Notes under the pieces: model-generated | What the model was told of the DNA's origin: nothing | What the model saw: the letters and a program-made list of their open reading frames with translations, nothing else | Database searches by the model: none | In this document: positions 14,254 to 36,650 of the stretch, piece after piece | Numbering within the stretch: position 1 is the first letter of the stretch | Layout: every line of letters begins with the position of its first letter | From: a virus | DNA: 42,256 bases | Strand: one strand, 5' to 3' | IMG/VR virus record: IMGVR_UViG_3300024520_000164 | Span: 1 to 42,256 of that record | Made by a program: the position numbers and the translations under genes

Positions 14254-14640
14254 ATGTACACCTGTACCGGGACGGAGGAACATCGGCACAGCGAGGTCGT
14301 GTACGACAGCACGCTAATAGACTGTCCTGTGTGCGCGATGACAGGACGCCTGCGCAAAGAGCGCGACGAGGCAGGGGACGCGATCGAGACACTTACACTG
14401 AATCTTGAAGCAGCCGAGTCCGCGCGCGACGACCAGCGCGAGGGCGAGAGGCGGAAATCCGAGCGCCGCCGATTTGGCGTTATGGCAGACGATCTCGGGC
14501 TGCGCAGGCGCTCAAGAGTAGAACACCGCAAAGAATGGGCGAACCGCCGCCGCGAAGACAGTGGCCGCGCCGCGCGGAAGGTCACCCCTCCCGCACTGGA
14601 TACCCAAACGCCTCGAAGTCCCGAGCGTAAACGAGATTGA
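14254..14640 (+). CDS. Hypothetical protein with N-terminal cysteine motif and charged coil
   Basis: The 128-residue product starts at an ATG preceded by AAGGAGGAAG. It contains CTGTEEHRHS and a CPVC motif (near residues 4 and 25), suggesting a small metal-binding head, followed by a highly charged helical region rich in Arg and Glu. It is the last rightward gene, and its final 59 bases overlap the end of the leftward sulfotransferase gene. Base composition is less biased than in the replication genes. Function unknown. Confidence 0.55.
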   Translation: MYTCTGTEEHRHSEVVYDSTLIDCPVCAMTGRLRKERDEAGDAIETLTLNLEAAESARDDQREGERRKSERRRFGVMADDLGLRRRSRVEHRKEWANRRREDSGRAARKVTPPALDTQTPRSPERKRD

Positions 14641-15250
14641 CTATCTTGACATCCTCCGGGCTCAGCTCTTCCTCGGGCCCGTTCGTGTACTCCCCCGGGA
14701 ACGAGAGAGCACTGTCCTTCGCCGGCCAGGACTCGGGCTGCCCGCTGTAGAACGGCAGCTTCTTCCAGTCCTCGGCCAGGTTCTCGAGCCTCAGAACCGT
14801 TTGCAGCCTCTCTAAAGGCGCCAACTGCTCGACCTGGGGCTTTACGGCTGCGTAGCTCCGTTTCGTTGTGAGAGCCCACGAGATGAAGTTCTGGAGGGTG
14901 TTCTTGCCCGGTACCTTGCCCTCGAAACGCCTCCCGGGGCCCGTCATCGAGCGCCAGGCGGACACGATCCGGGTGTAGGGGTCGCGCACAACACTGAACT
15001 TGAAGTGCTTAGGGGTAGCGAACTCCTTAGGGACGATGTTAGGGTGGCCAGCAACGTACCGCGGGTGCTGGACAGCGGCGCCGATCTCCCTCTTCCACTG
15101 TTTTCCGTACTCCTGCCGGGGCACTATCCGGAGACCGACCTTGCACACAGCGCTGCCGCCGTAGAACGTGGTGAGGGCCCAGTGGACCGAGTGGGTGCCG
15201 CACTTCGCGTTCGAGATGAAGACGTAGGGGGGGTCGTGGCAGACGATCAT
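14582..15250 (-). CDS. Sulfotransferase, copy 2
   Basis: This 222-residue protein would transfer sulfate from PAPS. It has the 5'-phosphosulfate loop NAKCGTHS at residues 14-21 and the 3'-phosphate motif FSVVRDPYTRIVSAWRS with R89 and S97. The C-terminal part repeats the pattern of the neighbouring paralogue: NGPEE, LSPEDV and YARDFEAFGY. The ATG at 15250 overlaps the stop of copy 1 as ATGA, so both are made together. Cys17 stands in the loop where copy 1 has alanine. The acceptor is unknown. No PAPS-synthesis gene is seen, so PAPS must come from the host. Confidence 0.85.
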   Translation of the reverse strand: MIVCHDPPYVFISNAKCGTHSVHWALTTFYGGSAVCKVGLRIVPRQEYGKQWKREIGAAVQHPRYVAGHPNIVPKEFATPKHFKFSVVRDPYTRIVSAWRSMTGPGRRFEGKVPGKNTLQNFISWALTTKRSYAAVKPQVEQLAPLERLQTVLRLENLAEDWKKLPFYSGQPESWPAKDSALSFPGEYTNGPEEELSPEDVKIVNLVYARDFEAFGYPVREG

Positions 15251-15903
15251 GGGTCCTGCATCCTGTAGTCGAAAGCCTCGAAGTCGGCGGCGTAGAACTT
15301 GTTGACGAGGGCGACGTCGTCCGGGGAGAGCGTCTCCTCGGGACCGTTCGAGTACTGCCCGGGGAGGGTGAGAACGGACTCCCTGCCCGGCCACTTCTTC
15401 GGCCGCCCGTCCCAGAAGGGGAGGGAGCAGAACTCGGCGGCGAGGCTCTCGAGGTGCAGGATCGCGTCGTACTGAGAGACCGGTCGGAGTTGATCGACCT
15501 GGCGCCGCACCGCAGGGTGGTAGTGCTTGACCGCCGTCGCCCACTTGAGCCAGAGCGAGAGGTTCTCCGGGTTCGGGCACTGCTTGAGGATGTGTTTGCC
15601 GGGGAGCGTTGTCGAGCGCCAAGCCGAGACCGCTCGGGTGTAAGGGTCCCGGACCACGGAGAACTTGAAGTAGTCGCGGCACTCGGGGGGGATCTCGTGG
15701 GGGTGGTGGGGAACGCAGATAGGCCCGGACCCGTAGCGCTCGATCCAGAGCGGGTGCTTGTCCCGCTTCGGGGGCTCGTACTGTCCCGTCTTCCTGTTGT
15801 GCCAGAGGCCCCCGTAGAACCTGGACAGGACGTAGAACATGGTGTGCGTCCCGGCCTTGGGAACGCTAACGTACACGTAGCGGAGGTCGTGGTTTACGAG
15901 CAT
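15247..15903 (-). CDS. Sulfotransferase, copy 1
   Basis: The 218-residue protein shows the sulfotransferase signature: VPKAGTHT at residues 14-21 (5' loop) and FSVVRDPYTRAVSAWRS with R85 and S93 (3'-phosphate binding). Length fits a minimal phage or bacterial Sulfotransfer_2-type enzyme. It follows the tail fibre and two small coiled-coil genes in the late operon. A late, tail-adjacent position suggests the acceptor is a virion part or a host surface sugar rather than a replication product. It and its partner are clearly duplicated and then diverged in the middle region. Confidence 0.88.
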   Translation of the reverse strand: MLVNHDLRYVYVSVPKAGTHTMFYVLSRFYGGLWHNRKTGQYEPPKRDKHPLWIERYGSGPICVPHHPHEIPPECRDYFKFSVVRDPYTRAVSAWRSTTLPGKHILKQCPNPENLSLWLKWATAVKHYHPAVRRQVDQLRPVSQYDAILHLESLAAEFCSLPFWDGRPKKWPGRESVLTLPGQYSNGPEETLSPDDVALVNKFYAADFEAFDYRMQDP

Positions 15904-17543: not shown

Positions 17544-20500
17544 CTACGGGGTAACGATTTCCCGCTCCGAAGACCAGTTGCTGCCAGCGGTGCCGAAAGA
17601 GTCGATGGCAGCCGACCTCACGTACCATGTACCAGAAGTGAGCCCGTCTTGGTAGTGACTTATCTCACGACCGCCGAAGTCGACCCTGGGGCTGGACCAG
17701 TCCTCGGTGCTGAGCCTACGCTGGATTACGTAGTACTCGAAGTCGATCGGCTTCGGGCTCAGGTCGTTCCAGTTGGCGTTGTAGGTCGTGGCTGTGTTCA
17801 AGATTACGTACTGCGGCAGGGCTGCGGGCGCGTCGTTGGTCACATACAGAGAAGCGTAGTTCTCCGAGACTTGGTTGAACTTGTCGTAGGCCCAGACCGC
17901 GATCGTGAACGCTCTAATCGGTACTCCCTCGTTGTCGATCGCGTTCTTGTCGAACGTGTACAGGTACCGGTTCTCGGCAACGAACTCGGTGCGGCGGAGA
18001 GCGCCTGTATTGTCCCAGATCTGGACGATGTAGCCTTGGAAGTAGCTGCTGCGGACGCCTGCCCCGGCGCCGGTCTCCTCTTCGCCGGCGGGCGGATCCT
18101 CGTCCAGGGCCCCGACCTCCCGCCAGGAGAACTCGACGTGCTTGCCTACGAAGGTCTGGTCGTTGCCCTGCCCCGAGATCTCAAGCCCCTTCACGTCCTC
18201 GGGCTTGGTCGGGAAAGCGACGACGACGCTGGTGGTGGGCGCGTTGGAGAGATCGGGCTTGATCCCCTGCGCTGTCGAGGAGAGCGCCCGGAGGTAGATC
18301 CGCTCTCCCGGCACCATGTTGCGGAGGATGTGCGTGTTCCCTGTAACGGAGAGCTCGTACTTCCAGGTCTCGTTGTCGGTGCTGGTGAAGATGTCGACGT
18401 GGTTGTGCCAGCCGTAGCCGACCTCGGCGTCTGGGACATCCCAGGAGAGGTAGACGGCGGCGACGTAACCAGGACCGGAGAACGCTGTGAGGCTCTCTAC
18501 ATGCTTCGGGGGCCGGTTGGGGGTTGGGAGGCCTGAGTACTCCTCGACAGGCAGTACGGACCCCGAGAGGTCGTACACGGCAGCGCTGTACTCCGTCGCG
18601 GAGATCTGAACCTCGGTGTCGCTGGTCCTCTCCATCTCCATGACGCGGAACGGTTTCTTCTCGACGTTCGTGTACCCGATCGAGAAGACGTCGAACGCGA
18701 CCGGTTCTACGGACCAGGGTGCGGCGATGTTGATCGCGGTGCCAGCGGCGATATCGCCCGTGTCGGTGATGGTAGCTTCTTCCAGCGCATCGTCGGCTGT
18801 CTGGCGCACGAGGATCTTGTAGGTGCGCCCGGAGACCAGGGGCAGGGAGACGGGCTCTTTGAGGGTGACGGTCTGGGCGGCGCCCGCCTTCACGCGCCCG
18901 CTGGCGATGCCCCAGATCGGCAGGTCGTGCGCAACGTAGATCACGTCTCCCGGTACGCAGGTAACGGCGTCGATGCCCGCCTTGAAGCTGACGACCTTCG
19001 TCGAGAGCCTCTGCTTCTGCAGCGACTGGATCCCCACCCGGATCGCTTCCGACAACCTGTGTACGCCAAGCAGGAACGAAGTGTCCTTCCGGATCGGGTC
19101 CCCATTCGAGTAAGCGGTCGCGTCCCGGATCATTGCAGTGTTGCGCTGGTAGTAGTTCGCGTCGTCGGCGAACTGGATCTCGAGAGTGTTGGTGGAGTCT
19201 CCCGTCGCGACGTACTCGATCTGGAGCGAGTTCTCTACAACGTTCCCCATCGTGAAGAGCTGGGTGGCGGTGGTCGCCTTATCGAAGACGAACTGGATTG
19301 TGTTATTCCTCCAGACAGCCCAGGCGTTGATGGAAGCGCAGACGTTGGCGACGACGTCCAGGGCCGGGGTGAAGGCATCGAGAACGAAGCCGAAAACGTG
19401 GCGGGTCTCGGTGTCGCCCGCGCCCCCCTCGATGAACTCGGCCGCGTCACAGTAAGCGGCTGCGGTCGCGTAGTCCGCGAGCGGCATATGCTCGGCGGAG
19501 ATGTACTGCCCAGCGCCGTAACGGGTGTTGAGGAACAGCTCCCGTAGACAGTAGATCGCGTTCTCGGAGAAGATGTCGGGGTTGCCTGCGGTCTCGACTT
19601 TGCGTCCCTCGACCGCGACCGTGATATTGGGGAGGGACCCGGAGAGCTGGCTGGTCGCGAGGACTTTGAGCCCGAGGAGCGCGGTGAACGGGTAGACGTG
19701 CTTGTCGTAGCGAACCTCGTCCCAGGCGTAGAGGAAACAGTCCTTGACCCAGACCTTGTTGTTGTCGGTGCGCGCTTCGCCCCCGTACATCTCGATCTTG
19801 ACCTCGTAGCGCCCGGGGGTCAGGTTCGAGATCGTGTACGACCTCCGGATAGCCGACATCGAGAGGGCCGGGCCCATCATGAAGTCCTGCCCGACGTTGT
19901 AAGAGCCCCCGACCACGCGCCAGTAGATCTTCATCGGGATGAAGGTGCTGTGGATCCCGCTCTTGTTCGTCTTGTACATCGAGGGGCACTTGAAGTGGAG
20001 AACGATCTCCTCGACATCGTCGCCGGTCGTCGTGCGCTCGTAGCCCTCTGGGTACTCGTCATTGTTGGGGTTGCCGACCCAGTCGAGCTGAATCGTGTCG
20101 CCGAACGAGAGGAGGTCGTGGATGTCGGTGAAGCCCGGGACCACAGCTTGGCTCTCGTTACCGAGGCGGATGAAGATGTCGATGTCGTCGTAGTTGTCGA
20201 CCGGGTTGCCGTCGACGAGGATCTTGTCGGCGATCGCGTCCTTGTCCCCGGCATCGGTGTCGGCGGTGATCCCGGCGATGCTCTGCAGGGGTCCTTCGCC
20301 AAGACCGATGAGTATGTTGAGGAAGTTGTCGTTCTCGTTGGACTCGATGTACGTGTTGAGGTAGTTGCCCCCCATCCGCACAGTGCCGTACGGGACCGCG
20401 ACGGGAACATCGACGTCCATCGTGTTCTGGACCCCGTCCCAGCCATAGGTCGGAGAGGAGTCGGCGCCGCCTTCTTGGCTGCCTGTAGAGGGGGACTTGG

Positions 20501-20861
20501 CGGTGAGGAGCATGATCCCCTGCGTGAGGAGCGAGGCCACTGCGAGGTAAGGAGCCGCGGCCACGATAGCGGCGCCGACGGCCTTCAGCCCTACCATGAC
20601 CATTCCGCCGATGACCGCCCACTCGATGCCCTCGATTACAGGCAGCACAGTGATCTCGTGTCCGTCCTCGACGTAGAAGGTCTCCCACTCGTCCTCGGGA
20701 ACCTTGCCTTGACGGCTACTCACCACGACGGCGAACTGCCCGTTGAGGTACCTTGCCGGAACGTAGTCCGAGATCCGGGAGCCTTGCCGCACGAACTCCT
20801 GCTGAAACGTCTCCTCTTCCCGGTTGCCGAAAGGGTTCTTGATGACGTGGACGGAGATCAT
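17544..20861 (-). CDS. Tail tip protein J-like (central host-specificity protein)
   Basis: At 1105 residues this is the large tail tip protein that closes the tail and carries the fibre. It has a hydrophobic segment near residues 85-115, as lambda-type J relatives often do, then the conserved J core (about 150-700, with IGLGEGPLQSIAG, ILVDGNPV and GDVIYVAHDLP) and fibronectin type III-like repeats towards the C-terminus (about 770-1105, including SLTAFSGPGYVAAVYLSWD). Its start overlaps the NlpC/P60 gene as ATGA, giving the lambda order M, L, K, J without a separate I. Confidence 0.85.
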   Translation of the reverse strand: MISVHVIKNPFGNREEETFQQEFVRQGSRISDYVPARYLNGQFAVVVSSRQGKVPEDEWETFYVEDGHEITVLPVIEGIEWAVIGGMVMVGLKAVGAAIVAAAPYLAVASLLTQGIMLLTAKSPSTGSQEGGADSSPTYGWDGVQNTMDVDVPVAVPYGTVRMGGNYLNTYIESNENDNFLNILIGLGEGPLQSIAGITADTDAGDKDAIADKILVDGNPVDNYDDIDIFIRLGNESQAVVPGFTDIHDLLSFGDTIQLDWVGNPNNDEYPEGYERTTTGDDVEEIVLHFKCPSMYKTNKSGIHSTFIPMKIYWRVVGGSYNVGQDFMMGPALSMSAIRRSYTISNLTPGRYEVKIEMYGGEARTDNNKVWVKDCFLYAWDEVRYDKHVYPFTALLGLKVLATSQLSGSLPNITVAVEGRKVETAGNPDIFSENAIYCLRELFLNTRYGAGQYISAEHMPLADYATAAAYCDAAEFIEGGAGDTETRHVFGFVLDAFTPALDVVANVCASINAWAVWRNNTIQFVFDKATTATQLFTMGNVVENSLQIEYVATGDSTNTLEIQFADDANYYQRNTAMIRDATAYSNGDPIRKDTSFLLGVHRLSEAIRVGIQSLQKQRLSTKVVSFKAGIDAVTCVPGDVIYVAHDLPIWGIASGRVKAGAAQTVTLKEPVSLPLVSGRTYKILVRQTADDALEEATITDTGDIAAGTAINIAAPWSVEPVAFDVFSIGYTNVEKKPFRVMEMERTSDTEVQISATEYSAAVYDLSGSVLPVEEYSGLPTPNRPPKHVESLTAFSGPGYVAAVYLSWDVPDAEVGYGWHNHVDIFTSTDNETWKYELSVTGNTHILRNMVPGERIYLRALSSTAQGIKPDLSNAPTTSVVVAFPTKPEDVKGLEISGQGNDQTFVGKHVEFSWREVGALDEDPPAGEEETGAGAGVRSSYFQGYIVQIWDNTGALRRTEFVAENRYLYTFDKNAIDNEGVPIRAFTIAVWAYDKFNQVSENYASLYVTNDAPAALPQYVILNTATTYNANWNDLSPKPIDFEYYVIQRRLSTEDWSSPRVDFGGREISHYQDGLTSGTWYVRSAAIDSFGTAGSNWSSEREIVTP

Positions 20862-21259
20862 ACCATCACCCCTTCGACCCAGTAGTACCCAATCAGCTTG
20901 GACTGGTAGCGGGCTTCCCCGACGTGGGACGCCGCCACGCCCATCTTGCAGGTCGCGTGCAGGAACAGGTCATCTTCCAGCATCACACCGAGGTGGTCCG
21001 GAACGCTATCTCTGCCGAAAAGGACAACGCATCCCGGCACTGGGGCCGGAATCTTTTTCGTCATCTCGGAGAGAAGGTCGAGCGCGATGCCGGGATTCTC
21101 CTGCGCCTCCTCAAGAGAGTACGGGAAGTCGGGGATCGCCGCCCCGAGCTTGTGAAGCACGCGCATCACGAGCCCGTAGCAGTCGATGCTTTCCCCCCGC
21201 CCCTCCGACTCCCAGGGAGTCCCGAGCATGTCCTCGGCGATCTGTGTCAGCTTGCTCAT
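20858..21259 (-). CDS. NlpC/P60-type cysteine peptidase, tail tip (lambda K-like)
   Basis: This 133-residue protein has a catalytic Cys27 in SIDCYGLVM, His89 in PDHLGVML and His101 as third residue, the pattern of NlpC/P60 endopeptidases. In lambda-like phages this domain sits in gpK and helps cross the cell wall or assemble the tip. The ATG at 21259 overlaps the upstream stop as ATGA, and the stop overlaps the J start the same way. It lacks the N-terminal Mov34-type domain of lambda gpK. Confidence 0.85.
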   Translation of the reverse strand: MSKLTQIAEDMLGTPWESEGRGESIDCYGLVMRVLHKLGAAIPDFPYSLEEAQENPGIALDLLSEMTKKIPAPVPGCVVLFGRDSVPDHLGVMLEDDLFLHATCKMGVAASHVGEARYQSKLIGYYWVEGVMV

Positions 21260-22785
21260 GAGATCGCCAAGTTCCTGAACGGCACCGAGGGGAAGCCCCC
21301 GAAGCGTTCCGAGTTCTGGTGCGCCTTGCAGTTGCGCAGTGTGTGATCGCACGCGTCGGCGGTAGAGAAGAACGCGTTACGGAAGTAGACGGCGAGGGGC
21401 GCGCTCCCGTACTGGTACCAGCGGATCCGGGAGACGGCTCTGATGTCGAAAGTCCCGACCTCGGTGAAATCGCTGAGCGCGATCTGGAACGTCTGCCAGG
21501 ACGCGGTGATCGTCGTCCCGACAGCGCCGTAGCCTCCGGTGACCCCCATGTTGTCCCCGAGAGCGGAGATGTAGATCTCGTTCGTGTCGGGGACGTCGCT
21601 GCCGATCTCGAGTTGGCTGAACTCGCCCGAGGCCTCGGACATGTCGAGGGGATCGGAGACGCGCAGGTCGATGAAGAGGTACTGGTCTCCGGCCGTGATG
21701 TCGAGACCGCGGCAGTCCACCGCTCTGTCGAAGTAGCGCTCCGCGATCGAGAGGTCCGTTGCTCCCCAGCGCACCATCGCGTTGCGCCAATGGATCGAGC
21801 AGGGCGCGGACTGGAAGTTGTACCAGGAGACGCGCTTCATCGCTGAGACAGTCGGGGCAGGCGCCGTGGCCGAGAAGGCGCTGAGCGGGATCTCCATCGT
21901 CTGCCAGGCGGTGGTGACCGACTTGCCGCTGAGTTCATCGCCGGAGAGGCCGGTGAGATCGGAGTAGTACCACTCGTTCGTGTCTGCGGAGGCCGAGGAC
22001 GAGAGCTCGAGCTGTCCATTGGAGGTCAGCCTCGCTGGGTCCGAACACTTGAGGTCGATCACGAGAACCCCGTCCCCGACCCCGAGACCCGTACAGTCTA
22101 CCGCGTCGAAGACTTTCTCGGCCCGATCGGTCTGGACTTGGTTCGCCTGCCGGTCCTGCTGCACGCCATAGAGAGCGACGTCGCCCCCGGTGACGACGAC
22201 GTCCTCGGCCATCAGGCGCTGCTTCGCGGCCTCGAAACCGGACGGGGCCACGTACGCCCCTCCCGACCCGGTGGCGGTCCAGCAGCCGTAGCCCTTATAG
22301 GTCCACTGACAGTGGTTCCGTGCATAGCGTCGGAGCGGTAGGCGGACCTTGAGAATGTCGAGTTTGGACGAGAGACGGAACACGGCAGCGGCGTCGGTCA
22401 CCGTCACCGACTTCACGTAGAACGTGTCCTCGATGTACGCAGCCGCGTCGGCGAGAAGATCCGAGAAGACCTGCTTGATGACGACCTTCCTGTTGCGGAG
22501 GCCGTCGCTGGACTCCAGATAAGACTGGATGTACCGGGTGACGTTGGCGACCGTGACCTCGACCACATCGACCTTGCCGTCGGAGGAGCTCTCGAGGCCG
22601 CTGTGTGTGACAGGGAAGGCTTGGTAAAGGTCCCCGCCCGAGGCTGGGTAAACAACGTCCACGTCCCACTCCGCGAGCAGGAGGTCGTTGGCGGGGTTGC
22701 CGTCGGTGTCGATCCGGTAGAGCCAGATCGGCGCATTGACCTCCAGGTTCTTCTCGGCGATGAAGGGGTCGGTTCCGCGGGGCAT
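21256..22785 (-). CDS. Lambda gpL-like iron-sulfur tail tip protein with inserted tandem beta-sandwich modules
   Basis: The 509-residue protein is a gpL relative at its ends. C159 and C168 (CQWTYKGYGC, C-x8-C) and C479 and C486 (CDHTLRNC, C-x6-C) keep the two cysteine spacings of lambda gpL, which bind a [4Fe-4S] cluster, and the C-terminus has the usual RFGGFP. In lambda the pairs are about 22 residues apart; here 310 residues separate them. The insert holds two similar modules (about 225-340 and 350-475), each with D-C-x-G-L, VIDL or FIDL, TNE, a WQT and a W-x-x-I/L-YF-RNA stretch, like carbohydrate-binding beta-sandwiches. The ATG at 22785 shares a base with the upstream stop. Confidence 0.8.
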   Translation of the reverse strand: MPRGTDPFIAEKNLEVNAPIWLYRIDTDGNPANDLLLAEWDVDVVYPASGGDLYQAFPVTHSGLESSSDGKVDVVEVTVANVTRYIQSYLESSDGLRNRKVVIKQVFSDLLADAAAYIEDTFYVKSVTVTDAAAVFRLSSKLDILKVRLPLRRYARNHCQWTYKGYGCWTATGSGGAYVAPSGFEAAKQRLMAEDVVVTGGDVALYGVQQDRQANQVQTDRAEKVFDAVDCTGLGVGDGVLVIDLKCSDPARLTSNGQLELSSSASADTNEWYYSDLTGLSGDELSGKSVTTAWQTMEIPLSAFSATAPAPTVSAMKRVSWYNFQSAPCSIHWRNAMVRWGATDLSIAERYFDRAVDCRGLDITAGDQYLFIDLRVSDPLDMSEASGEFSQLEIGSDVPDTNEIYISALGDNMGVTGGYGAVGTTITASWQTFQIALSDFTEVGTFDIRAVSRIRWYQYGSAPLAVYFRNAFFSTADACDHTLRNCKAHQNSERFGGFPSVPFRNLAIS

Positions 22786-23132
22786 TAGCTCAGACCGTCC
22801 TCGTTGCAGGTAACGCACTCGAATTCGGCGAAGAAGTGGCCGAGGGCTGCGGTCTCCCGGTACGAGCCCTGCTCCATGCGCACGGAGACTATCGCGTCGT
22901 CGGTCTCGTCGGTGATGTCGAACTTCTCGAGGGACCCGGTGCGGGCATCGAAGAACGCTCTCCAGTTGGCGAGGCCGGCCGCGTTCAGGGCAGGGCTCTT
23001 GATCCGGTACCGGGCGACCACCCGGGACGCTTTCTGGCGCCGCTGCTCCATCTGGTTCTCGAACGTGGTGACGAGGTTCGGGTACGAGCGGGTGACTTCC
23101 GAGGATCCGATGTCAAGGGTGAAGGTTGCCAT
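22785..23132 (-). CDS. Minor tail protein M-like
   Basis: The 115-residue protein resembles lambda gpM in length, position and ending: a beta-rich start, QMEQRR near residue 27, a WRAFFDARTGSLEKFD middle and a final FFAEFECV similar to the FSAEFEQV of gpM. It connects the tape measure end to the tail tip. It lies directly before the gpL-like gene, as in lambda. Confidence 0.7.
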   Translation of the reverse strand: MATFTLDIGSSEVTRSYPNLVTTFENQMEQRRQKASRVVARYRIKSPALNAAGLANWRAFFDARTGSLEKFDITDETDDAIVSVRMEQGSYRETAALGHFFAEFECVTCNEDGLS

Positions 23133-23133
23133 G

Positions 23134-26127
23134 TCAGGCTCCAGCTCTCCGGATCGTTCTCCGGGTGACGCCGTTCTCAAGCGAGTCGCGGTTGACGGCG
23201 TTGACGATGACCCCCCGCCCCTCCCGGGACTGCATCGAGGCAGCGACGGCCTCGTTGGTGATCATGTTGTAGATCACAACCGGCTGCTCCTTTGGGGTCT
23301 GAGAATTGACCCCAGGACCTCCAATGCCGTCCGTAGGCTGAAAGGCGTCCGGGTATTGGGCTATGTTAGTCGGGCCGAGACCGATCGTTCCTCCGATCGG
23401 ACCCCCGCCCCCGCCCCCGCCGGCGTTGAACCAGCTGCCCATACCCCCAAGGACCCCACCGAGGGACCCGAGGAGCCCGACGAGACCGAGCCAGTTGAAC
23501 CCGCCGCCCCCGCCCCCTGCGCCCTGCTTCCCTGTGAGGGCAAGCATCATCTGCTGCGCCGCCATTTGGGCGACCGTCTTGCGCCACGCGCTGAGGATAT
23601 CGAGGGCGAACTGCCGGAAGTGGTCCCCGAACGAGTCCAGGTCCGACATCGAGTTCTCGAAGAAGGAGCCCCAGGCCGTCTCCATGTCCTGGTAGGCCCG
23701 GACCGCGACCTCGGCGCCTGACTTCATCTCCTCCTGGGATTTCTGGGCCTGAAGGCGAAGACCCTCGAAGAAGGTGCCGGTCCCGAGGGTGTGGCGGCGC
23801 CGCTCCTGCTCTTTCCTATACGCTCCGATCTGCCCGACCAATCCGGGGTCCAGACCCAGCTTCCGGTAGCCGTCGAGCTGCAGTTCGATCAGGCGCATGT
23901 TGAACTCGTGGCTGGCCTGGGACTTCTCGTCGATCTCGTTGTAGAGCTGGGCCGCGATCCGAACCCGCTGCATGGCAGCTTGGCGGGCGGCCTTTTCAAT
24001 GCGGTCGGCGTTCTTCTTCTCGCGCTCGAGGCGCTTCCTCTCGAAGTCCTCCTCAGCCTGGTCAACGTCCTCGAGAACGAGTAGGTACCCCTGCTGCGCC
24101 TTCGCGTAGATCTTGACGAGCGTCTCCTGCGTCCCCTCGGCGTCCCGGATCGTGTTCTCCATCGCTTGGCGGGCAGCGATGCGTTGCTGGTCGAACTGGT
24201 CCTCGGTGCCGAGGATCTCGACGCGCTGCGAGATCTCCCGGAGAGTGTCCGCGCCGGTGGTCTCGATACGGATCTGCTCTTCCATTGCCGACTTGCGCTC
24301 ACGAAGGTACTTCTTCAGTGCGGCGGCGGATTTCTTCTCGGCCTTCTCCCGATCCTTGGCCTGGTTCTCAAGGAGCTTGTCGAGATCCGCCTGCGCTTTC
24401 CGGGCCCCAATCTGGAGATCGATCTTCTTCAGATCGTCCGCCTTGTCGGGGTAATCGGCGATCAGCTGCAGGTAATCGCTGAGGGCTTTCTTGGCAGTCT
24501 CGATCGCGGTGCGGGCCTGCTCCATCTCCTGTGCTGTCGTAGCAATGCCGGCGGTGACCGCCGCCCGGACGCTGGCGGCGTCGTACTCCTCGGGGGTGAG
24601 TCGGATAGGCTGCTTCCCCCCAGTCTTGCCGACCTCGCCGAGCACCCTGCGCAGGCTACGGACGACCGAGAGCCGATCCCGCAGCGCCTTCGTCTCCTCC
24701 GTGATGCGCTTTGTCATCTCAGCGTGCGCCCAGCTGCCCTCGCGGAGTTTCTCGTACACCTCGTAGTCAAGGCGGACCATCTTCGTCTTCTCAGCTATCT
24801 CGTTCTTGAGGGCGGTGGTCTCTGCGTTGATGTTGGCGACCTGCGCAGAGTACATCTCGTCCACGACGCGCTGGAGATCCACCCAGTCCTGGATCAGGAT
24901 GCCCTCCTTGGCCAGCGTCGTGATCAGCTGCTCTTTCACCTTGGTCAGGTCGGCTGTGAGCGTCTTGGCTTTCTCTGTATCGAGAGCGTACTTGGCGATG
25001 AGTCGCGTGACGTTCTCGTACCTTCTTGTGAGGTCGAGCACAGCGTTCATGTTCCCTACAGCAGACTTCGCCGCCGCCGCCATCTCGTTACGAGCCGCCC
25101 GCTGCTCCGCCTTGAATGCGACGATGACGCCGATCAGGGCTGTGAGTGCAGCAGCAACGCCGCCGACAGCGACCCCCCAGCTGAAGAACCCGGCCTGCCA
25201 CAGTTTCACGATACTGGTGACCGAGGGGGCGATCGCCATGAACGTCCCCATCGACAGTGTTGCTGCGGAGAGAGCGGCGCCTACCGACACGATGGCGAAG
25301 GTGAGCGTTCTATTCTCCTTGCCGAACGCGACAACGGACTTGGTAACGGCCCCCATAGCGTCGTCGATCTCCTGCAGCCCCGCCTTGGCCAGCTCCCACA
25401 TCCCGGTCTCTTGCATGAAAGCGTCCCGGAACTGGAACCACTTGTCCTCGATCATGGACATGATGCCTGTCCAGGTCGTGGCGAGGGACTTGGCCGCGCC
25501 CTTGAACTGGGAATCCATCTTCGTCCAGGACTCCATCAGCACCTTACGGGTCTCTTCGGCAGTATACTGTACTCCGCCCTTGAACCCAAGCATGGCTGAG
25601 ATGCCCCGCTCCCGGAAGCGGTCGGCTGCCTGGGCCCCGGCGGAGTACATTCTCGCAATCTGCGCCGTCGTGACCTCGATGGAGAGTCCCACTGCCGCAG
25701 AGAGGTCGGCGATGAGCGGCATCCACTTGATGACGTCGTCGGCGCCGTCCTCCATGATACCCGAGAGGGCGGTGGCCGACTCCATGATCTTCTCGTAGGT
25801 GAACGGGACCTGGGCAGCGTAGTCCGCCATCTCCTTGAAGAGACGAGCGCCCTCGGCCTGGGTGCCGAGCAGGGCGCGCAGACGGAGCTCGTACTGCTCG
25901 ATCGCGTTCGAGGCCTTGATGAAGCTCTTGGCGAGCATGACGCCGGTCGCGGTGGCGGCGGCGCCTGCGGCGGCGATGGCGATGCCCAGCTTACGAATGT
26001 GCTCGCGGTTCTTCTCGACCCGCTTGCCGAGAGAGTCGACTCCCCCCTTGAGGTCGTCGACGCCCTTCTTCGCCTTCTTGGTCTCGATATTGATCCAGCC
26101 TATTGCTGCGCCGGCGTCGAAAGCCAT
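23134..26127 (-). CDS. Tape measure protein
   Basis: The 997-residue protein sets tail length; at roughly 0.15 nm per residue this would be a tail of about 150 nm. It has a conserved tape-measure N-terminal half (about 60-300, with AAQVPFTYEKIMES and SAGAQAADRFRERG), hydrophobic segments near 45-65 and 280-330, a long charged coiled coil (about 340-780) and a Gly-rich hydrophobic part near 880-930. Its ATG shares a base with the stop of the chaperone T frame, giving translational coupling. Confidence 0.9.
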   Translation of the reverse strand: MAFDAGAAIGWINIETKKAKKGVDDLKGGVDSLGKRVEKNREHIRKLGIAIAAAGAAATATGVMLAKSFIKASNAIEQYELRLRALLGTQAEGARLFKEMADYAAQVPFTYEKIMESATALSGIMEDGADDVIKWMPLIADLSAAVGLSIEVTTAQIARMYSAGAQAADRFRERGISAMLGFKGGVQYTAEETRKVLMESWTKMDSQFKGAAKSLATTWTGIMSMIEDKWFQFRDAFMQETGMWELAKAGLQEIDDAMGAVTKSVVAFGKENRTLTFAIVSVGAALSAATLSMGTFMAIAPSVTSIVKLWQAGFFSWGVAVGGVAAALTALIGVIVAFKAEQRAARNEMAAAAKSAVGNMNAVLDLTRRYENVTRLIAKYALDTEKAKTLTADLTKVKEQLITTLAKEGILIQDWVDLQRVVDEMYSAQVANINAETTALKNEIAEKTKMVRLDYEVYEKLREGSWAHAEMTKRITEETKALRDRLSVVRSLRRVLGEVGKTGGKQPIRLTPEEYDAASVRAAVTAGIATTAQEMEQARTAIETAKKALSDYLQLIADYPDKADDLKKIDLQIGARKAQADLDKLLENQAKDREKAEKKSAAALKKYLRERKSAMEEQIRIETTGADTLREISQRVEILGTEDQFDQQRIAARQAMENTIRDAEGTQETLVKIYAKAQQGYLLVLEDVDQAEEDFERKRLEREKKNADRIEKAARQAAMQRVRIAAQLYNEIDEKSQASHEFNMRLIELQLDGYRKLGLDPGLVGQIGAYRKEQERRRHTLGTGTFFEGLRLQAQKSQEEMKSGAEVAVRAYQDMETAWGSFFENSMSDLDSFGDHFRQFALDILSAWRKTVAQMAAQQMMLALTGKQGAGGGGGGFNWLGLVGLLGSLGGVLGGMGSWFNAGGGGGGGPIGGTIGLGPTNIAQYPDAFQPTDGIGGPGVNSQTPKEQPVVIYNMITNEAVAASMQSREGRGVIVNAVNRDSLENGVTRRTIRRAGA

Positions 26128-26801: not shown

Positions 26802-27332
26802 TTAGACGCTGCCGAGCTTCCACATCGCGTTGCGCGGAACTCCGGACACCTCCCCGGACGTTACCGGGTAGGCGACGAAGATCACTTCTGCGACCCGCTG
26901 GCTGTCCACATCGAACGTCCAGCTGTAGTTCGGACGCGGGCTCGCCTTGAACATCGTGAGCCACTTCGTCGTGTCCGCCGTCGCGACTCCGGCGTCCAGG
27001 GGTTTGACGAGGATCTGCTGAGCGTTGTCGCGCAACGAAGTGCCGACGTCGCTCTTGACCATCATCTGATTCCCTGAAGTGCCGGAGGTCCCGGACGCTC
27101 CCGGCGTGATCGTCGTCAGCTCGGCCAGCGAAAAGCGCGTAAGCTGCAAGCGCAGTTCCGCTCGACCTCCAATGACAATCTCGTCGACGGGGGCGGTTCC
27201 GTTCCGCGAGGTATTGACTTCGGCCGTCGAGATCTCGAAAGAGAACTCCGCCTCGATGTTCTCCTGGAGCACGGTTGCTCCAAACGTGACCTCACACGGG
27301 CCGAGGTCCTTGAACGGGGACATCACACCCAT
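26802..27332 (-). CDS. Major tail (tube) protein
   Basis: The 176-residue protein is encoded right after the tail terminator and before the chaperone genes, the usual place of the tube protein. It is beta-rich, with a start MGVMSPFKDLGPCEVTFG, and a middle ISTAEVNTSRNG typical of tube proteins. GGAGGAGG eight bases before the ATG gives one of the strongest ribosome binding sites in the late region, and a hairpin follows the gene; both fit a highly expressed structural protein. Confidence 0.75.
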   Translation of the reverse strand: MGVMSPFKDLGPCEVTFGATVLQENIEAEFSFEISTAEVNTSRNGTAPVDEIVIGGRAELRLQLTRFSLAELTTITPGASGTSGTSGNQMMVKSDVGTSLRDNAQQILVKPLDAGVATADTTKWLTMFKASPRPNYSWTFDVDSQRVAEVIFVAYPVTSGEVSGVPRNAMWKLGSV

Positions 27333-34555: not shown

Positions 34556-34641
34556 CGTCCTCTCCCTCTCAGAAACTGGGCCAGGAGCAGCAGCGCAATC
34601 ACTGCAACGAGTCCTGCCCAGTCGTATGCATGGGGGCCCAT
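34552..34641 (-). CDS. 29-residue membrane micropeptide
   Basis: The ATG shares its A with the stop of the large fusion gene (TGATG), and the stop lies inside the next start (ATGA), so the reading frame exactly fills the gap. Residues 9-23 (AGLVAVIALLLLAQF) form a membrane helix with a positively charged end (RGRGR), giving a likely N-out, C-in orientation. It may anchor or partner the neighbouring enzyme at the membrane. Its small size leaves doubt, but the double coupling favours a real gene. Confidence 0.6.
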   Translation of the reverse strand: MGPHAYDWAGLVAVIALLLLAQFLRGRGR

Positions 34642-36650
34642 CACGCGCGCCAGCAAGCGAACGGCGGAACCTTTTCCACACTCCCCTCCTGGATTGCGTC
34701 CACGAAGCGCACGGTCCGGTGGTCGTGATTCGACCCCGGCCGGTAGTCGTGGAAGATGATCGTCTTCGCCCCCGTGTCGTGGGCGGTCTTGAAGTTCGCG
34801 CTCACGGACTCGTAGGAATGGTTCCCGTCGACGAAGACGAGATCGGGACGGAGACCGAGGTGCTTGATCGCCCCGTCAAGGGCGTCGTCGCTGTCGATGA
34901 TGAAGGCCGCGATCCGGTCGCGCACCTTGAACACCTCCCAGACTGAATTACGGGCGGGCTGCAGGAGGATATCGAACGTGACCACCATCTCTGCGTGCTG
35001 GGCCATGATTGACGACGACACGCCCTGGAAGGTGCCAATCTCAAGGGCGATGGTGGGCTTGGCGTCCGCGAGCAGTTTGCGGAAGATCTCCTCTCCGTTG
35101 TACCCGAGCATCGACCAGCGCACAGCCTCCTCGCCAAGGGTGTCGATAAGCTCGCGCGTGACGCCGATGCTGAAGTCGTACTCCGCGGTCGAGACGCGCT
35201 GTTGCTTGCAGCAGGCGAGGGAGGCCTGGGTCTGCTCCCGGATCGGCGTCCCCTGACCGCGCACGGGGGCGATCAGACTCTTGAACCGGCGCGAGACCTG
35301 GGTCTGTTCGATGACGGGCTCGCCAGCCTCGACCATGAGGTCGAAGATCTGGCAGTAGGTAGCGGGGATGTTGTGGACGTCGACACCATCTGGATGCACG
35401 AGGACCTCCTGTAGGTTCTTCTGCTCCCACTGAGGCTTAGGCTTCGCGCCCTCTTCCCGGTTACGACGCACCCAGCGATCAAGAAGGCTGCGCACCGAGG
35501 CGGTGTTCTTGAGGTACATCACCGCGCTGTCGAGCTCCTGCTCGGTGCAGCCCGCGCGCCTCTTGTACTGAGACCAATCGATCGAATGCACCCCCAGATC
35601 GTGCGGATAGTCCTGGAACAGAGCCGGGTAACGGCAGACACGGGAGTCCACGTCCACCCAAACGACGTCGCGTCCCCCGTGCTCGTCCAGAGACGTGCGC
35701 AGGAACTCCGCCTTCTTGTATGTATTGAGGTCCCAGCTGCCCTCGTTCGGGATTCCTTTGATCGAGTGCTCCAGCGAGAACTTGCGCAGTGTACCCTGCA
35801 GTTTCGGTACTTCATCCTCATACGGCGTCCCTTCCGTGTAGAATGAAACGAAGACCGGCCTACGCACTTGGGGGACATCGGCGAGCTTTCCTTTCTCGAA
35901 GCACTCGAGGGCGCTCTCCTCACTCAGGTTGATCACCCGGGTCCGTTCCTTGATCCAGGGAGCAGCCTTGTCGAAGAAGCCGCGGAAGTTCTCGTACACC
36001 CTCGACCCCTGCACCGAGGGGTAGCCGTCGTGGAACCAGACCTGGCTGTCGCCCTCGCCGTGCATGTCGTAGCCGAGCAGGTAGATCGGATTGGCGCCGA
36101 GGCAGATCGCCAGGTTGAGGGCGGCGAACCCGGAGTTCTGTCCGTGTCCGAGCCCCTCGACGATCGAGGGCGACATGCCGTTCGGGTTCGGGTGGCACTT
36201 CAGGTAGTAGATCTCGGGTGCGAGGTCGTAGTCCGAGGTCCGGAGCCACGTCTTCATCGCCGTCGAGCGCAGGAACGCTTCACGGGAACGATCCCCCAGC
36301 TTGTTGGACTCGATCCAGCCCCAGAGACGGTAGTCCATCGAGAAGAGGATCGTGGGGTCGTAGTACTCGAACGCCCGGTTGATCCCGATCGAGAGCTCGT
36401 ACTTGAGGAAGTCCCAGTCGAAGTTCTTGAGGCTGGGACCGCCGCCGACGAGGAAGGCGCGACCGCCTTTCCAGGCTCCCTGCGGCAGATGGCGCCAGAG
36501 CAGTTGGCGCTCCCCGTGAGGGGATTGGATGTCTTCCACGCCCTCAACGTCGAGAGCGTGCCGCCATTCCGGTTTATTGATGATTCGTTTTTCGGGAAGT
36601 CCGCGCCGCCGTCTGCGGAGACGCTCCGCCCTTACCTTGTCGAGAGGCAT
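34641..36650 (-). CDS. Three-domain fusion: GT42/DUF115-like, GT-A glycosyltransferase, SAM methyltransferase
   Basis: The 669-residue protein joins three enzymes. Residues 60-250 are GT42/DUF115-like: VGGGPSLKNFDWD (68-80), INRAF (90-94) and GYDMHGEGD (193-201). Residues 265-440 look like a GT-A nucleotide-sugar transferase, with a D-x-D in VVWVDVDSRV (329-338) and an EQKNLQEVL segment near 409. Residues 500-669 are a class I methyltransferase of the Methyltransf_24 type: LEIGTFQGVSS (536-546), LVFVDGNHSYESV (604-616) and IIFHDYRPG (631-639). The N-terminus is basic. The gene has AAAGGAG upstream and follows the capsid gene after a hairpin. A role in making or methylating a glycan on capsid or host surface is inferred. 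Confidence 0.75.
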   Translation of the reverse strand: MPLDKVRAERLRRRRRGLPEKRIINKPEWRHALDVEGVEDIQSPHGERQLLWRHLPQGAWKGGRAFLVGGGPSLKNFDWDFLKYELSIGINRAFEYYDPTILFSMDYRLWGWIESNKLGDRSREAFLRSTAMKTWLRTSDYDLAPEIYYLKCHPNPNGMSPSIVEGLGHGQNSGFAALNLAICLGANPIYLLGYDMHGEGDSQVWFHDGYPSVQGSRVYENFRGFFDKAAPWIKERTRVINLSEESALECFEKGKLADVPQVRRPVFVSFYTEGTPYEDEVPKLQGTLRKFSLEHSIKGIPNEGSWDLNTYKKAEFLRTSLDEHGGRDVVWVDVDSRVCRYPALFQDYPHDLGVHSIDWSQYKRRAGCTEQELDSAVMYLKNTASVRSLLDRWVRRNREEGAKPKPQWEQKNLQEVLVHPDGVDVHNIPATYCQIFDLMVEAGEPVIEQTQVSRRFKSLIAPVRGQGTPIREQTQASLACCKQQRVSTAEYDFSIGVTRELIDTLGEEAVRWSMLGYNGEEIFRKLLADAKPTIALEIGTFQGVSSSIMAQHAEMVVTFDILLQPARNSVWEVFKVRDRIAAFIIDSDDALDGAIKHLGLRPDLVFVDGNHSYESVSANFKTAHDTGAKTIIFHDYRPGSNHDHRTVRFVDAIQEGSVEKVPPFACWRA

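Follow-up and report, generated by a model that had tools for sequence, protein, structure and literature searches.

A gpL-type phage tail-tip protein with a tandem pair of carbohydrate-binding-like modules between its conserved cysteine pairs

In phage lambda, the iron-binding domain of the tail-tip protein gpL lies on the outer surface and its ligands, resolved by cryo-EM, are Cys173, Cys182, Cys205 and Cys212, while what the iron-sulfur cluster of the tail tip does remains to be characterised (PMC10721106). Other hub proteins carry a domain inside the corresponding region. The ion-binding segments of RcGTA gp13 (residues 143-167 and 250-263) flank an oligosaccharide-binding domain at residues 168-249 (PMC7296036), and the Fe-S domain of the R4C hub is likewise split by an oligosaccharide-binding domain (PMC10276861). 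In JBD30 gp50 the ligands are Cys147, Cys156, Cys238 and Cys245, with 81 residues between the pairs. The RcGTA, R4C and JBD30 hubs all coordinate one site despite the domain between their cysteine pairs. Evolved distal tail (Dit) proteins with carbohydrate-binding module (CBM) insertions, as well as CBMs of lactococcal phages, are described in two further papers (PMC6669499, PMC10688798).

The window considered here is a whole stretch of 42,256 nucleotides from a virus record (IMGVR_UViG_3300024520_000164). It contains an open reading frame of 509 amino acids (P0001; 21256..22785, minus strand) that begins with ATG, overlaps at its start with the stop of a gpM-like gene (TAATG) and at its end with the start of an NlpC gene (ATGA). 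The protein matches Pfam Phage_tail_L (PF05100; 1.1e-16, 61.2 bits, above the cut-off of 25) and PHROG 18 (1.1e-26), and its gene occupies the position of gpL, between the gpM-like gene and gpK (NlpC), followed by gpJ. The NCBIfam equivalog model TIGR01600 scored 55 bits, below its cut-off of 70.75, indicating a homologue and not a lambda equivalog. The above-cut-off matches to both PF09931 and PF09356 that mark GTA-type hubs are absent: PF09931, the GTA-type hub attachment domain, gave no match at E<=1 in this protein, and Phage_BR0599 (PF09356) reached 17.4 bits against a cut-off of 22.9 (E 0.0057, residues 476-502). The protein is a gpL-type hub protein and a gpL homologue, as the first-pass annotation had claimed.

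The two ends of the protein can each be related to lambda gpL. Residues 1-168 (22282..22785, minus strand) form an HDI-like core that ends with the first cysteine pair; the Pfam and PHROG matches cover residues 51-168. The C-terminal segment (21259..21360, minus strand; CDHTLRNC...RFGGFPSVP) is assigned to the Fe-S domain by the sub-threshold Phage_BR0599 match, a weak match to the lambda gpL C-terminus and alignment with module-free relatives.

The neighbouring genes lie on the minus strand as well. The tape measure protein (23134..26127) matches PHROG 973/339, and the gpM-like distal tail protein (22785..23180) matches DUF2460 at 4.8e-06, under the curated cut-off, with homologues upstream of gpL in relatives. 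On the other side are the gpK-like NlpC/P60 peptidase (20858..21259; Pfam NLPC_P60 2.7e-09) and a gpJ-like tip/host-specificity protein (17544..20861; PHROG 31 (J) 1.1e-106). Residues 42-177 of the latter match PHROG 32 (1e-11), a family of tail assembly proteins, and a gpI gene of its own is missing between K and J. It follows that gpI appears to be fused to the N-terminus of gpJ; the same fusion seems to be present in the relatives L026 and L043. Slightly upstream of the tape measure gene is an Ig-domain protein (26802..27332, minus strand; PHROG 2175, 1.9e-15). Near the tail genes, a sulfotransferase (14582..15682, minus strand; Sulfotransfer_2 3e-09, PHROG galactose-3-O-sulfotransferase 4.8e-08) is possibly a phage-encoded glycan-modifying enzyme. 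A 669-residue two-domain protein (34641..36650, minus strand) matches PHROG alpha-2,3-sialyltransferase at residues 68-259 (2e-25) and a methyltransferase at residues 536-636 (5e-09).

Cysteines are found at residues 159, 168, 231, 247, 329, 358, 479 and 486 of the gpL-type protein. The first pair, C159-x8-C168 (22282..22311, minus strand), is separated by 310 residues from the second, C479-x6-C486 (21328..21351, minus strand), which aligns with that of relatives. The lambda-type gpL of phage DE3 has a spacing of 8/22/6, in agreement with the published lambda ligands, confirming the initial observation that the spacing within the pairs is exactly that of lambda gpL. The ordered pattern C-x8-C...C-x6-C arose in only 0.27% of shuffles of the protein, which rules out a chance arrangement. 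The four cysteines are conserved among gpL relatives. Every complete module-bearing relative retains all four, with x6 kept throughout and x8 in all except L031 (x10).

Between the pairs, residues 169-221 (22123..22281, minus strand) comprise a conserved loop start (GCW...APSGF), common to module-free relatives, and then a low-confidence linker. Two modules follow, at about residues 222-340 (21766..22122, minus strand) and 345-475 (21361..21753, minus strand), with module HMM i-E values of 5.8e-38 and 5.2e-29 in the fetched set. They are a tandem duplication: residues 223-336 and 349-471 share 40% identity (E 3e-22, shuffle z = 31) and their DCxGL, TNE, WQT and RNA strands correspond, as had been noticed from the sequence at the outset. 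A profile built from 10 modules retrieved the CBM30 chains 1wmx and 2c24 at E 0.003, a sequence-based result that is independent of Foldseek. For single modules, the best values were 0.0015 for CBM_11 (with the module of a relative) and 0.0025 for SGBP_B_XBD, both sub-threshold. Pfam CBM30 scored 18 bits on the whole protein, below its gathering score of 27, and no CBM30 or CBM11 model of Pfam exceeded the gathering score. The beta-jelly-roll fold of these families appears in the predicted model (Foldseek probability 1.00 to 1wzx, 2c24 and 1v0a). The insert is thus a tandem module pair resembling carbohydrate-binding domains by profile and predicted fold, which bears out the resemblance proposed earlier; sugar binding is putative.

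AlphaFold2, run with 44 aligned proteins from the window and the loci, gave a mean pLDDT of 78.7 with a pTM of 0.45, against a pLDDT of 32 from the single sequence. Most blocks of the core and of both modules exceed a pLDDT of 85. The weak spots are the stretch just before the first cysteine pair (42-61), the surroundings of residues 142-153 and the linker at residues 197-218 (<50). Given the pTM and the low values before the first pair, the placement of the domains in the model is uncertain. When compared with the PDB by Foldseek, lambda gpL (8iyk_L) ranked top (E 7e-10, probability 1.00), followed by the JBD30 and T1 tip proteins, the RcGTA hub, the R4C hub, CBM30 and CBM11 (1v0a). The CBM30 matches (1wzx, 1wmx, 2c24) had a probability of 1.00, an rmsd of 4.4-5.5 and TM scores of 0.42-0.49 by target length.

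Searches of viral contigs with the protein by itself, or with a profile made from only its two modules, retrieved no relatives. Searching for the motif of the second cysteine pair led to L026 (the same as L032), which has the gene order of the window and one module, and later profile scans yielded about 80 further gpL loci. In 95 gpL-type proteins with a measurable loop, 8 to 462 residues lie between the cysteine pairs. Within the branch that includes the window, the loop holds 22-31 residues and no module in six relatives (L034, L036, L037, L038, L039, L040), 159-162 residues and one module in four (L032, L043, L045, L046), 290-310 residues and two modules in the window, L030 and L031, and 462 residues and three modules in L033. 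Homologues with and without inserts, as sought from the beginning, therefore exist and share the core and the four cysteines. The module-free L034 is 51% identical to the window protein in the core and shares with it the two cysteine pairs and the C-terminal motif. Since such uninterrupted relatives contain both halves, the halves belong to one family and not to two unrelated ones. A frameshift or assembly artefact was ruled out, as the frame is uninterrupted and one to three modules occupy the same loop in seven other contigs. One genome-collection scan returned only a MAG contig whose length and match coordinates are the same as those of L034, and module searches of deposited phages and plasmids gave no match. 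As to whether the module entered gpL once or several times, parsimony counts 6 changes, of which well-supported branches force only 1.

The gpL cysteine loop is thus an insertion hot spot. Loops of other kinds were observed as well. In L014, L021, L022, L023, L027, L029 and 60-odd other loci only 8 residues separate the pairs, against 22 in lambda. Cyanophage loops measure 260 residues in S-CBS4 (L006:1851-3248) and 181 in S-2L (L009:1716-3023), with alanine-rich, probably helical stretches unlike the CBM-like module. In the L066 gpL, the 87-residue loop contains a small domain whose relative is inserted into the N-terminal domain of the L031 protein (L031:1703-3391, about residues 50-125; pairwise E 3e-09). 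The two represent a second small module (VGxGTxF...VGD.I...ITDxTHxxV), unrelated to the CBM-like one.

The CBM-like module is not confined to gpL. The module HMM detected 17 copies in the examined loci and one more in L117. In the gpJ proteins of L039, L043 and L045 it always occupies one site, between ...GLTADTD... and ...GDKIxIxGNPxxNY..., and this site is without a module in the window, whose gpJ-like protein gave no match to the module HMM, and in seven other relatives. L039 combines a module-free gpL with a module in gpJ, and both proteins bear modules in L043 and L045. The module also resides in a glycine-rich protein of L044 (Pfam Gly_rich_2, 4.7e-14), a contig of which L118 and L119 are the two ends, and in a protein of L117 whose sequence reads as fibre-like. 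The copies share 16-55% identity, and the module tree resolves few of their relationships. The occurrence of none to three copies in the gpL loop and the sharing with gpJ and fibre-like proteins indicate a mobile cassette that has undergone copying, loss and transfer between these proteins.

The reading that we favour, with a probability of about 0.62, is a gpL-family hub with a tandem CBM30/CBM11-like jelly-roll pair inserted between the cysteine pairs of its [4Fe-4S] domain. By analogy with lambda and RcGTA, one [4Fe-4S] cluster would close the base of the loop. The modules would then be exposed on the outside of the tail tip, and three gpL copies would carry six of them. They may bind host polysaccharide weakly, sugar binding being the least certain step. 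A tenable if unlikely alternative casts the modules as decorative jelly rolls that bind no sugar and instead reinforce the tip, cover the joint between gpL and gpJ or anchor side fibres. Phage tails contain many Ig-like domains of this decorative kind, and the jelly-roll fold is functionally promiscuous and also serves roles other than sugar binding. The weakness of the CBM matches below the Pfam cut-offs and the low identity among module copies fit this alternative. Nevertheless, carbohydrate-binding modules are among the best structural and best profile matches of the modules, the same module recurs in the glycine-rich and fibre-like proteins, and variation in copy number typifies adhesion more than scaffolding.

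The separation of the cysteine pairs bears on the cluster itself. If the 310 intervening residues had driven the pairs apart, the Fe-S cluster would be lost and the halves would be independent domains on a long tether, a picture to which the low pLDDT around residues 142-153 and 197-218 would lend itself. This is very unlikely, given the four cysteines kept in every complete module-bearing relative and the single site coordinated across an inserted domain in the RcGTA, R4C and JBD30 hubs. These hubs raise the further idea that the insert is a diverged oligosaccharide-binding domain of the GTA type and not an independent insertion. The insertion site is the same, in its C-terminal motif (CDHT..NC...FGGFP) the protein is similar to BR0599 of GTA-type hubs, and the Foldseek matches to the RcGTA and R4C hubs span 325-331 columns. 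However, the closest relatives have domain-free loops of 22-31 residues, the modules match CBM30/CBM11 and the gpJ module instead of the hub domain, and no intermediates that align the two residue by residue were seen, leaving this origin scarcely credible.

For the favoured gpL hub with its inserted jelly-roll pair, the zero to three copies in the loop and the presence of the same module in other tail proteins give the loop the look of an external socket of the tail tip, into which phages fit parts for host recognition. A bolder extension, which we consider unlikely, is that the [4Fe-4S] domain may be a structural clamp and the loop a universal socket, where cassettes of any size would be exchanged with gpJ and fibres, retuning glycan recognition and leaving the hub fold untouched. 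If true, it would supply a reason for the cluster. One module type is common to gpL, gpJ and fibre-like proteins, and the natural series of homologues with zero, one, two and three modules makes it testable whether the cluster acts as a cargo-tolerant clamp and whether tip modules set adsorption.

Compared with known systems, the protein resembles lambda gpL (PF05100; 8iyk chain L) in its HDI-like N-terminal core, its four cysteines with x8 and x6 spacing, the gene order tape measure-M-L-K-J and the GGF-type C-terminus. It differs in having 310 residues and two modules between the pairs instead of 22 residues, and the gpI-like part of the window is fused to gpJ. With RcGTA gp13 and the R4C hub it has in common an Fe-S domain of four cysteines interrupted by an inserted domain, and a similar C-terminal motif, whereas those hubs contain a single domain of about 82 residues and of another type, in place of two CBM30/11-like jelly rolls on a Phage_tail_L-type core and a branch with zero to three copies. 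Sphingobium phage Lacusarx LAV_00021 is likewise a hub in the place of gpL, with a domain of sugar-binding type flanked by C-x8-C and C-x6-C, but it has a GTA-type core (PF09931/PF09356), an F5/8-type-C domain and no tandem. The first-pass statement that no gpL with such an insertion had been described was therefore too strong, since the RcGTA, R4C, JBD30 and Lacusarx hubs precede it. The modules are like CBM30 (1wmx, 1wzx, 2c24) and CBM11 (1v0a) in their predicted jelly roll, and their C-terminal strands give a weak profile match; the identity is 14-18% and the Pfam scores lie below threshold. In the Dit and lactococcal reports, carbohydrate-binding modules decorate tail adhesion proteins too, yet they sit in the distal tail protein or in neck passage structures, and here in the Fe-S loop of gpL. 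The present case contributes a jelly-roll type of module within the lambda-type branch, the copy-number series and the sharing of the module with gpJ.
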